NCBI GenBank assembly: GCA_008727115.1
Contig: CP044131.1
Span: 992,001-1,056,000 of the forward strand
Direction: 5' to 3'
DNA from: Comamonas testosteroni
GTDB taxonomy: Bacteria > Pseudomonadota > Gammaproteobacteria > Burkholderiales > Burkholderiaceae_C
Length of the DNA: 64,000 nt
The translations under genes were made by a program, and so were the position numbers. Shown one piece after another: positions 13,116 to 17,095 of this stretch. How positions within the stretch are numbered: position 1 is the first letter of the stretch; every line of letters begins with the position of its first letter. Below the pieces are notes generated by a model. That model did no database searches and was not told where the DNA came from. It saw only the letters and a list, made by a program, of their open reading frames with translations.

Positions 13116-13360
13116 CTCAGTTCAAATGAGTATGGCTTCTTGCTGGATTTGAAGGTTTTTGCCTTTAAATCCTTATGGGCTAAGCGTACTCAGCTATTGA
13201 ATTTGATGTGTTTAAGCCCATGTTGCTCTCATGAAAGCTGGAGGCTTTGATGCCATCTAGCGCCTTTGCCAAGAATGGGCATTCACTCTTGTCAGCAATC
13301 TTTCATTGGGGTTACTGTATGCCCCGCTCTGTCAGACGAATCGAACAAGGAATAACAAAG

Positions 13361-14860
13361 ATGCGCACACCCGCCTGGAAGACACTCAAATCCCGTGTTT
13401 CTGCGACGGCCCTGGTCAGCGCCATGATGGCGGCCTCCTTGGCTGGAGGCGGCTTGCTGTCGACCTCTGTTGCACACGCACAAAGCGCAGCTGTGGCACG
13501 TGGCTTGCCAGACTTCACGGATCTGGTCGACCAGGTGGGGCCCTCTGTGGTGAACATTCGCACACTGGAGAAAGTTTCGAATAACGGCGCTGAGGCTCTG
13601 GGCATGGATGAAGACATGCTGGAGTTCTTCCGTCGTTTTGGTCTGCCTGTGCCCAATGTGCCGCGCCAACGCTCTCCGAAAGGAGGACAGGCCGAGGAGG
13701 AGCAGCCACGGGGTGTCGGATCGGGCTTTATTCTCACTGCTGATGGCTATGTAATGACCAACGCCCATGTGGTCGAGGGTGCAGATGAAGTCATTGTGAC
13801 CTTGACCGACAAGCGTGAGTTCAAGGCAAAAATAGTCGGTGCTGATAAGCGCACCGATGTGGCCGTTGTCAAAATTGATGCCAAGAACCTGCCCGCCGTC
13901 AAGATTGGCGATGTGAGCAAGCTGCGTGTGGGCGAATGGGTCATGGCCATTGGCTCACCTTTTGGGCTTGAAAACTCCGTGACGGCAGGCATCGTTTCTG
14001 CCAAGCAGCGTGACACGGGCGACTACCTGCCTTTCATTCAGACGGACGTGGCTATCAATCCTGGTAACTCGGGCGGTCCGCTGATCAATATGCGCGGCGA
14101 GGTGGTGGGCATCAACAGCCAGATTTATTCGCGCTCGGGTGGCTTCATGGGCATCAGCTTTGCGATTCCTGTGGATGAAGCAATTCGCGTCAGTGATCAA
14201 TTGCGGGCTTCCGGGAAGGTCACTCGTGGCCGCATTGGTGTGCAGATTGGTCCTGTGACCAAGGATGTGGCTGAGTCCATTGGCCTGGGCAAGGCAGAAG
14301 GCGCGCTGGTATCGGCGGTTGAGCCTGATTCTCCCGCAGCCAAGGCTGGTGTGGAGCCGGGTGACGTCATTACCAAGTTCGATGGTAAATCCATTGAAAA
14401 AGTCTCTGATTTGCCGCGCCTGGTAGGTAATACCAAGCCTGGCACCAAGAGCGCTATCACCGTGCTGCGTCGGGGCAAGCTCAAAGAATTGAGCATGGTG
14501 ATTGCCGAAGTGCCTGCCGATGATGCGGGCAAGGCCAAGGCAGGTAGTGGTGGTGGCAAGGCTCCATCCTCTGGCATGCTTGAGAACAAGGCGCTTGGCC
14601 TGACCTTGAGTGAGCTGACAGCCGCGCAGAAAAAGGAACTCGAGATCAAGGGCGGAGTGCGAGTGTCGGCAGCAGTGGATGCAGCGGCACGTGCGGGCTT
14701 GCGCGAAGGCGATGTCATCTTGCAACTGGCGAATGCAGAAGTCTTGGATCTCAAGAGCTTTGAGGCCGCTTGGGCCAAAGCGGACAAATCCAAGCCCGTC
14801 AATGTGCTCGTGCGCCGTGGTGACTGGGCGCAATATGTGCTGATTCGCCCTTCCAAATAA
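13361..14860 (+). CDS. degP: DegP/MucD-type periplasmic serine protease (Do family)
   Basis: A 499-residue S1C protease and chaperone. A signal peptide covers about residues 1-40 with cleavage after AHA. The triad is His136 (TNAHVV), Asp166 (TDVAVV) and Ser237 (GNSGGPL). Two PDZ domains follow, the first around RGRIGVQIG and the second around LGLTLSELT. Gly/Lys-rich linker between the PDZs. ATG 13361 has an AAGGAATA ribosome-binding site; an in-frame upstream frame to 13247 would bury the signal peptide. Association with rpoE-rseA supports an envelope quality-control role. Confidence 0.94.
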   Translation: MRTPAWKTLKSRVSATALVSAMMAASLAGGGLLSTSVAHAQSAAVARGLPDFTDLVDQVGPSVVNIRTLEKVSNNGAEALGMDEDMLEFFRRFGLPVPNVPRQRSPKGGQAEEEQPRGVGSGFILTADGYVMTNAHVVEGADEVIVTLTDKREFKAKIVGADKRTDVAVVKIDAKNLPAVKIGDVSKLRVGEWVMAIGSPFGLENSVTAGIVSAKQRDTGDYLPFIQTDVAINPGNSGGPLINMRGEVVGINSQIYSRSGGFMGISFAIPVDEAIRVSDQLRASGKVTRGRIGVQIGPVTKDVAESIGLGKAEGALVSAVEPDSPAAKAGVEPGDVITKFDGKSIEKVSDLPRLVGNTKPGTKSAITVLRRGKLKELSMVIAEVPADDAGKAKAGSGGGKAPSSGMLENKALGLTLSELTAAQKKELEIKGGVRVSAAVDAAARAGLREGDVILQLANAEVLDLKSFEAAWAKADKSKPVNVLVRRGDWAQYVLIRPSK

Positions 14861-15165
14861 ATGTGACGAAAACCAACAGGCCTTGCGGTCATTTCATGAT
14901 CTGGAATGTCCTCAAGACCTGTACCCGACAGTGTCCCTATGCCATTGGGTAGAATCCCGTGCAAATGCATGGTGGTTGGACGCAAAAAATCTGCGCATAA
15001 AAGCAGTTTTCAAGCGGTGCAAAAGCCTTTGCAATTTCCGGCTGCTGACGGCTAAATGCAGGTTTCGTGATTGTGAATAATTTGTTGATACATGAAAATG
15101 AAATCACAAACCGGAACTTGTCAAGCCTTGCTGGGTCTTGGTTTGAGGCCAGTTTTGCCTACAAT
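14861..15165. other. Gene-free stretch between degP and the candidate sRNA
   Basis: I see no convincing coding frame, tRNA or repeat here. At its end lie two overlapping promoter candidates: GGAACTT (15113-15119) with TCTTGG after 16 bp, a partial sigma-E match, and TTGGTT (15138-15143) with TACAAT (15160-15165), a sigma-70 match at 16-bp spacing. Confidence 0.5.
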
Positions 15166-15236
15166 GAAGTCCCAACTATCGCAGTTGCCAGAGATTGTTG
15201 GTTAAGGGCGCGCCGCTGAGGGACGCGCCCTTTTTT
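15166..15236 (+). ncRNA. Candidate small RNA with two hairpins between degP and lepA
   Basis: A possible ~65-nt transcript starting a few bases after TACAAT (15160-15165). Hairpin 1 pairs CCAACTATC (15172-15180) with GATTGTTGG (15193-15201), 8 of 9 pairs, across a 12-nt loop. Hairpin 2 is a perfect intrinsic terminator: GGGCGCG (15206-15212) with CGCGCCC (15224-15230), then TTTTTT. The degP stop is 345 bp upstream, so this is unlikely to be simply its terminator. The alternative is a 5' leader attenuator of lepA, whose start codon is 51 bp beyond the T run. The plus strand is indicated because only there does the stem end in T. Confidence 0.5.
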
Positions 15237-15286
15237 CTTGCTGCTGCAGACCACTCTTTTTTAATTCCAAGCTGTCTTTCTCGTTG

Positions 15287-17095
15287 ATGAATCACATCCG
15301 TAATTTCTCCATCATTGCGCACATTGACCATGGCAAGTCCACGCTGGCAGACCGCCTGATCCAGCGCTGCGGCGGCCTCGCCGAACGCGATATGGAATCC
15401 CAGGTGCTGGACTCGATGGACATCGAGAAAGAGCGTGGCATCACCATCAAGGCACAGACGGCTGCACTGCAGTACAAGGCTCAGGATGGCAAGATCTACA
15501 ACCTGAATCTGATCGACACCCCCGGTCACGTGGACTTCTCCTATGAAGTCTCGCGCTCGCTGTCAGCCTGTGAAGGTGGTCTGCTGGTGGTCGATGCCTC
15601 CCAGGGCGTGGAAGCCCAGACCGTGGCGAACTGCTACACCGCGCTGGACCTTGGCGTGGAAGTGTTCGCCGTGCTGAACAAGATGGATCTGCCACAGGCC
15701 GATCCTGAGAATGCCAAGGCAGAGATTGAAGACGTGATCGGCATTGATGCCAGTGACGCCATTCCTTGCTCGGCCAAGACTGGCATGGGCATTGACGAGA
15801 TTCTGGAAGCCATTGTGCGCAAGGTGCCGCCACCTGAGGGCAATCCTGATGGCCCGCTGCGCGCCATGATTGTGGACAGCTGGTTTGATCCCTATGTAGG
15901 TGTCGTGATGTTGGTGCGCGTTGTTGATGGAGAGCTCAAGAAGAACGAGCGCTTCAAGATGATGGCCACAGGCGCTGCCTACGAGGCCAACAATATTGGC
16001 GTGTTTACCCCTGCCAACCAGCCGCGTGACGTGCTCAAGGCGGGTGAGGTGGGTTACATCATTGCCGGCATCAAGGAACTCAAGGCCGCCAAGGTGGGCG
16101 ACACCATCACGCTCGAAAAGAAGCTGCCCAATAACCTGGGTCCTGCCAGCGAAGCACTGCCAGGCTTCAAGGAGGTGAAGCCCCAGGTGTTTGCGGGCCT
16201 TTACCCGACCGAAGCCAGCGAATACGACCAGTTGCGTGATGCCCTGGAAAAGCTGCAGCTCAATGATGCTGCGCTGCAGTTCGAGCCTGAAGTCTCGCAG
16301 GCCCTGGGCTTTGGCTTCCGCTGCGGTTTCTTGGGTCTGCTGCACATGGAAATCGTGCAGGAACGACTGGAGCGTGAATTCGATCAGGACCTGATCACTA
16401 CGGCCCCGAGCGTGGTCTACCAGGTGGTCAAGGGTGATGGTGAGCTGATCGATGTGGAGAACCCCTCCAAGATGCCCGATGTGGGACGCATTCAGGAGAT
16501 CCGCGAACCTATCGTGACCGTTCATCTGTATATGCCGCAGGACTATGTGGGTCCAGTGATGACACTGGCCAACCAGAAGCGCGGTATTCAGATGAATATG
16601 CAATACCACGGGCGTCAGGTCATGCTGACTTACGAGATGCCGCTGGGTGAGATCGTGCTGGACTTCTTTGACAAGCTCAAGAGCGTCTCGCGCGGCTATG
16701 CCTCCATGGACTATGAGTTCCTGGAGTACCGCCCGTCGGATGTGGTGAAGGTGGATATTTTGCTCAACGGCGAGAAGGTTGATGCGCTGTCCATCATCGT
16801 GCACCGTACGCAAGCCACCTACCGTGGTCGTGCCGTGGTCGCCAAGATGCGTGAAATCATCAGCCGCCAGATGTTCGATGTGGCGATTCAGGCTGCCATT
16901 GGCGCCAACATCATTGCTCGAGAAACCGTCAAGGCCATGCGCAAGAACGTGCTGGCCAAGTGCTATGGCGGCGACGTGTCGCGTAAGCGCAAGCTGCTGG
17001 AAAAGCAGAAGGCCGGCAAGAAGCGTATGAAGCAGATCGGCTCGGTGGAAGTGCCTCAGGAAGCCTTCCTGGCCATTCTGCAAGTGGAGGACTGA
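15287..17095 (+). CDS. lepA: Elongation factor 4 (LepA) GTPase
   Basis: A 602-residue ribosome-associated GTPase that back-translocates stalled ribosomes. G1 is [10 protein letters not shown]2/G3 include RGITIK and DTPGHVDF, G4 is NKMD. The LepA-specific C-terminal domain is present, ending [23 protein letters not shown] 15287 directly follows an in-frame TTG; ATG is the more likely start and gives the normal [16 protein letters not shown] beginning. It overlaps lepB by one base (TGATG), so the two are co-translated. Confidence 0.97.

Follow-up and report, generated by a model that had tools for sequence, protein, structure and literature searches.

A conserved candidate small RNA between degP and lepA of the Comamonadaceae with a loop complementary to many ftsZ leaders

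The gap between degP and lepA in Comamonas testosteroni and its relatives probably encodes a core trans-acting small RNA (sRNA) that, in many of these relatives, acts on the translation of ftsZ and is possibly tied to DnaA. At the level of sequence, the gene, its structure, its synteny, the complementarity and the conserved upstream boxes can be regarded as established. The fuller scheme is more tentative: under the control of DnaA via tandem boxes, this core sRNA might pair with the ftsZ leader and so couple the start of replication to Z-ring synthesis.

Architecture and conservation of the element

The stretch analyzed here (the window, 64,000 nt) comprises positions 992001-1056000 of the C. 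testosteroni genome, which consists of one contig of 4.14 Mb. By eye, the named loci closest to it belong to Comamonas (L077, C. testosteroni; L154, C. terrae). The following features were located in the window:

13247..14860 (+): degP/mucD-type protease gene, the 5′ neighbor (ORF as listed; the true start may be later)
15072..15080 (+): DnaA-box-like 9-mer 1, TGTGAATAA, at a constant position of about -96 relative to the end of the -10 box
15083..15091 (+): DnaA-box-like 9-mer 2, TGTTGATAC, a direct repeat 11 bp further on, at about -85
15113..15119 (+): sigma-E-like -35 match GGAACTT, not conserved and not part of the element
15138..15143 (+): -35-like box TTGGTT, weakly conserved (letters read directly)
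15160..15165 (+): -10 box TACAAT, 16-nt spacer from TTGGTT, unchanged in all 69 aligned loci (these had been extracted with a pattern that itself includes TACAAT; 1 of 70, L070, failed this pattern)
15170..15237 (+): predicted sRNA of about 65 nt, start placed by the -10 spacing (± 3 nt)
15172..15201 (+): hairpin 1, CCAAC-U-AUC (15172-15180) with GAU-U-GUUGG (15193-15201)
15181..15190 (+): near-invariant loop GCAGTTGCCA, the proposed seed, with reverse complement TGGCAACTGC
15204..15236 (+): intrinsic terminator, GC stem followed by T6 (15231-15236)
15287..17095 (+): lepA (EF4) gene, directly downstream of the sRNA

Direct reading confirmed the promoter boxes (TTGGTT-16-TACAAT), the hairpin of eight pairs and the perfect terminator with T6 that a preliminary description of this DNA had listed. 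In the window, the stem of hairpin 1 consists of eight pairs and one U-U mismatch, and the terminator arms (AAGGGCGCG and CGCGCCCTT) pair perfectly. The RNA folded from 15168-15238 reached -29 kcal/mol compared with -20.4 for shuffled sequences (z -2.9). The element thus combines features expected of a trans-acting base-pairing sRNA, i.e. a predicted promoter of its own, an intrinsic terminator with a U-tail, and no apparent coding frame. The absence of a frame, as originally described, was nearly right: an ATG frame of 13 codons starts at 15164 within the -10 box, 5′ of the predicted RNA start. A small protein starting from this ATG was rejected because the frame is not conserved among relatives; the ATG is present in 65 of 69 loci, of which 34 are open to the end and the others stop at six different lengths. 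The sRNA promoter was not listed by a generic promoter scan of the window, so that the evidence for it is its conservation. A TTGACA-like -35 box was not conserved, being found within two mismatches at a spacing of 16-18 nt in 7 of 69 loci.

The family considered here includes the Comamonadaceae together with Rubrivivax/Roseateles-type relatives. Using 15110-15245 as BLASTN query, the element was detected in 127 of 200 family genomes. Most matches began at query base 44 (window 15153), just 5′ of the -10 box, and ended past the terminator, indicating constraint on the promoter core and the RNA but not on the sequence 5′ of them. With a covariance model (R2) derived from 47 loci, the sRNA was recognized in 178 of the 200 genomes and in 125 of 141 genera. 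When genomes were drawn from the order, 14 of 399 matched the model (12 in the family, and two outside it at E about 1e-4); when they were drawn from the class, 17 of 369 matched, 15 of them outside the family (E 2e-6 to 8e-4). Matches outside the family were taken as chance; eight of the 15 outsiders in the class draw were inspected, and none had LepA. No convincing paralog was found in the C. testosteroni genome (next best E 0.03).

The genomic context was highly uniform. LepA lay downstream of the element in all 71 entries (including the window's own genome twice and L070), and a strong DegP match was found 5′ of it in 65; the other six had no match or a weak one in a short stretch. Among 119 named contigs found by pattern, LepA followed in all 112 with sufficient room (seven contigs end first), with 108 cases within 400 nt, three touching the element, and one at about 410 nt. 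DegP preceded the element in all 103 named contigs with room. L070 (G135:C49, 1503-1572) is a decayed copy that retained the terminator and lost hairpin 1; genome G135 has no ftsZ site. We also noted an AT-rich block before the lepA ATG (window 15237-15286 and relatives), conserved by eye in the first group of loci. The view of the sRNA as a core gene of the family appears well supported.

Covariation was measured on the 47-locus alignment fitted to the structure, in which 97.3% of pair cells were standard pairs. Two-sided changes occurred in 9 of 17 pairs and in both stems, none of 500 shuffles reached any of five covariation measures, and sliding the alignment by 1-3 columns lowered the paired cells to 35-50%. 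In this structure-fitted alignment, terminator pairs were kept in 98.6% of cells; hairpin 1 pairs were kept in 99.6% (outer part) and 87.3%, with changes on both sides. The loop GCAGUUGCCA was near-invariant, with single-letter differences in L033, L043, L044, L061, and L068. A structure proposed by RNAalifold on a MAFFT alignment, with CAAC paired to the loop GUUG, was set aside in favor of the outer stem, since the latter covaries (UCAACUU/AAGUUGA in L048) and the loop GUUG is broken in L068.

The preliminary description had suggested examining the conservation of both hairpins in relatives and scanning Rfam with Infernal. The former was borne out by compensatory changes in both stems, and its proposal of an independent RNA of about 65 nt with its own promoter and terminator finds strong support in the conservation across the family. 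Rfam 15 gave no match in the window at gathering threshold, the best sub-threshold hits lying far below the cut-off. In the literature searched, which covered a minority of the subscription journals, no sRNA at degP-lepA and no ftsZ-directed sRNA in the family was found among the matches listed. That the sRNA family is new relative to Rfam and to this literature, among the matches listed, is well supported.

As an alternative, the RNA had been proposed to be a terminated leader (attenuator) of lepA, with hairpins controlling read-through into this gene. The element does lie just upstream of lepA wherever checked, and the short stretch after the terminator contains no evident lepA promoter or Shine-Dalgarno sequence; as lepA lacks a clear promoter of its own, some read-through may occur. 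However, no upstream segment was found by inspection that could pair with the terminator 5′ arm GGGCGCG, and thus no antiterminator is visible; all eight family members folded displayed two independent hairpins. Moreover, the terminator is preserved with covariation, its distance to lepA varies freely between 31 and 188 nt, and the most conserved part of the RNA is an exposed loop complementary to the leader of another gene. We therefore regard attenuation of lepA as quite improbable compared with an independent sRNA.

Complementarity to ftsZ leaders and other candidate targets

Within the loop GCAGUUGCCA lies the reverse complement of GGCAACUGC, which is the 9-mer found most often in the ftsZ leaders of sRNA-positive genomes. 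Taken alone, GGCAACTGC occurs too often to be of diagnostic value (126 times in the window's own genome vs 57 for the reversed word); the target scan of 13 genomes required GGCAACTGC with a Shine-Dalgarno sequence and an ATG just downstream. This pattern was found at 38 places compared with 8 for its reversed form, and ftsZ was the recurrent gene (7 of 13 genomes).

FtsZ was located in 195 of the 200 family genomes, and the ftsZ leaders of 110 of these were read (104 parsed and six by eye). Sites were scored within 80 nt of the start codon, and sRNA status was taken from the covariance-model search. The exact 9-mer was present in 45 of 94 sRNA-positive genomes and in 55 when G-U pairs were allowed, so that in these genomes, the window's own not among them, the conserved seed is complementary to the leader of an unlinked gene. 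By shuffling, 0.05 occurrences were expected for the 90 parsed sRNA-positive genomes; no other 9-mer was as frequent as GGCAACTGC. With the 13 discovery genomes left out, the exact site was still found in 40 of 79 parsed sRNA-positive genomes. The site lies 16-32 nt 5′ of the ATG, with flanks that are little conserved except for the following A. It was present in none of 16 sRNA-negative family genomes. Outside the family, the exact site occurred in 0 of 28 genomes and the G-U-tolerant site in one (28 of the 78 outside genomes in the draw, using tblastn). Within 20 division clusters of about 19 kb, 12 had the site, or the variant with C changed to U, ahead of ftsZ, and the genome's own hairpin 1 paired with its own ftsZ leader better than shuffles did (at most 10 of 200) in 27 of 44 genomes. 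At the sequence level, a predicted ftsZ link is well supported for about half of the sRNA-bearing genomes examined.

In the remaining 39 of the 94 sRNA-positive genomes, the 9-nt site was absent even when G-U pairs were allowed. These include the window's own genome (G000) and its congener G128, for both of which the duplex energies of hairpin 1 with ftsZ equaled those of shuffles. As the loop is equally conserved in genomes without the site, ftsZ cannot be the sole target, and in the window's own genus the predicted RNA must have other targets. When the exact-site label was mapped onto a 50-row LepA tree, 11 changes were required, which indicates gains and losses of the site. Genomes carrying it fall on either side of the midpoint root, and the presence or absence of the site is not phylogenetically independent among genomes. 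No compensatory changes between loop and site were detected, the genomes with altered loops (G008, G124, and G095) having no ftsZ site. In G018, two ftsZ-like genes were observed in tandem (G018:C1:3288501-3289100 and 3289838-3290437).

The only other start with a site in the 20 division clusters was that of mraY in the window's own genome (G000:C1:3527331-3527356, minus strand; in L438, G000:C1:3515500-3534500), where GGCAACTGC almost touches the Shine-Dalgarno sequence. The site was not seen in the congener G128, and mraY is a possible target as a single-genome lead. Several further hits were set aside: (i) 50 sites within coding starts, of which several recurrent ones were read by eye as a coding motif ending in GNC; and (ii) EexN-like genes with the partial site GGCAACTGA, rejected for leaving the last seed base unpaired. 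In two genomes of the second group, G075 (L269) and G007 (L271), the leader of an OmpA-like porin gene (family assigned by eye) contains the seed complement just before the Shine-Dalgarno sequence.

The invariance of the loop in genomes lacking the ftsZ site, the mraY site, and the finding of 38 leader sites (8 for the reversed pattern), of which seven belong to ftsZ, would also fit a reading in which the sRNA is real but acts mainly on other mRNAs, with ftsZ as one target that depends on the lineage, and in which the upstream 9-mers are bound by a factor other than DnaA. Yet, as far as the leader sites were identified, none besides that of ftsZ recurred with the full 9-mer before the same gene in more than two of the 13 genomes, and the upstream boxes fit TGTGNATAA closely. 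This reading appears rather unlikely to us, and we favor ftsZ as the recurrent target.

DnaA-box-like sites and the question of sigma-E control

We take TTATNCACA to be the DnaA-box consensus and TGTGNATAA to be the same consensus read on the opposite strand. Of 69 loci, 59 had box 1 and 49 had box 2 with at most one mismatch to TGTGNATAA, and 46 had both; elsewhere, 31,878 position-strand tests yielded 26 such matches. Box 2 of the window, TGTTGATAC, is one letter off the family pattern TGTKNATAA, and box 2 of the C. testosteroni locus L077 reads TGTGGATAATTTGTTGATAA. Both boxes were present in 73 of 117 distinct upstream regions of named loci, a set that overlaps the 69 loci in lineages. Some lineages (Delftia, L138) lack the boxes or have weak versions of them. 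Searching 15 whole genomes for the tandem pattern at 0-1 mismatch yielded 20 places and none for the reversed pattern. All 8 exact places and 4 others lay at the sRNA promoter, 7 lay elsewhere, and 1 was situated at the chromosome end of G121 beside further DnaA-box-like sites. The dnaA leader of the window's own genome contains TGTGGATAA. Judged by this consensus, the boxes occupy a conserved position, as would be expected for a DnaA-regulated promoter; DnaA as an input to sRNA transcription, whether by activation or by repression, is plausible.

Alternatively, the boxes could serve, independently of the sRNA, to titrate or reactivate DnaA in the manner of datA or DARS. Such a function would agree with the near-uniqueness of the tandem arrangement in the genomes tested and with further inverted TCCACA motifs in some loci, but not with the spacing to the -10 box, which is fixed in two diverged groups. 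We consider it improbable and retain the boxes as candidate elements of the sRNA promoter.

Control by sigma-E had been suggested from a partial match overlapping the promoter. The letters are present in the window (GGAACTT at 15113-15119, N16, and TCTTGG at 15136-15141), and rpoE-rseA-degP lies in the neighborhood. However, GGAACYT occurred anywhere in 3 of 69 promoter regions and at this position in the window alone, and the invariant -10 box TACAAT is sigma-70-like. A sigma-E promoter was rejected, since the match is not conserved; the conserved upstream feature consists instead of the two fixed DnaA-box-like sites. Silencing of porin mRNAs, which the preliminary description had mentioned for sigma-E regulons, is not the main signal either: the recurrent leader is that of ftsZ, although an OmpA-like leader carries the seed complement in 2 of 13 genomes. 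An envelope-stress sRNA controlled by sigma-E and resembling MicA or RybB in role is very improbable. A further upstream feature, common among the loci and conserved in L004-L040, is the imperfect inverted repeat TGTTG-N8-CAACG, which lies at about -69 relative to the end of the -10 box and is perhaps an activator site; neither the window nor L003 showed it.

Relation to known RNAs and proposed role

Few ftsZ-directed RNAs were found in print among the matches listed: DicF (prophage), DinR (a Klebsiella SOS fragment), and StfZ (cis-antisense). StfZ of E. coli is reportedly transcribed from the ftsA-ftsZ gap in cis-antisense orientation and acts on ftsZ expression; the sRNA described here is trans-encoded, so that the common point would be an RNA acting on ftsZ. 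DicF is a 53-nt sRNA of the cryptic E. coli prophage Qin that represses ftsZ via direct pairing (PMC5069750), and DinR of Klebsiella pneumoniae represses ftsZ and pairs close to its ribosome-binding site (PMC10907235). Whereas DicF resides on a prophage, the locus of the present sRNA, between degP and lepA, is part of the core chromosome; DinR is described as processed from the 3′ end of dinI, LexA/SOS-controlled, and equipped with a Klebsiella-specific pairing region (PMC10907235), whereas we find a stand-alone, family-wide gene. Homology to DicF or DinR was rejected, as the gene location is not common to them; the sRNA would work like them without being a member.

In architecture and in the use of a loop as seed, the sRNA seems to most resemble EcpR1 of Sinorhizobium meliloti and other Rhizobiales (PMC4414408). 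EcpR1 is likewise an sRNA with two stem-loops, kept over several families, whose strongly conserved loop pairs with cell-cycle mRNAs. Compared by description, the two differ in locus (divK-pleD vs degP-lepA) and in targets: EcpR1, which is regulated by the stringent response, represses dnaA and gcrA (PMC4414408), whereas the present sRNA has ftsZ as its recurrent predicted target and is itself preceded by DnaA-like boxes.

We propose the following mechanism. A trans-acting sRNA of about 65 nt would start at a dedicated promoter between degP and lepA and end at the intrinsic terminator; the near-invariant loop GCAGUUGCCA, displayed by hairpin 1, would serve as the seed. In many members of the family, this seed would pair, perfectly or with G-U pairs, to GGCAACUGC beside the ftsZ Shine-Dalgarno sequence, 16-32 nt before the start. 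Most simply, such pairing would lower FtsZ synthesis, repression being favored over activation by analogy with DicF and DinR. The DnaA-box-like pair at its fixed upstream distance suggests that DnaA may set sRNA transcription, which would link the initiation of replication to division.

How bacterial division is coordinated with replication is still an open question. If the proposal is true, Comamonadaceae-type bacteria would possess an RNA-based link between the two processes. A stand-alone, family-deep sRNA with an ftsZ-complementary loop and DnaA-like boxes would constitute an RNA input devoted to division, and its family would fill a gap, as no Rfam family covers it. Judging from sequence, the sRNA may help to time cell division in these bacteria.
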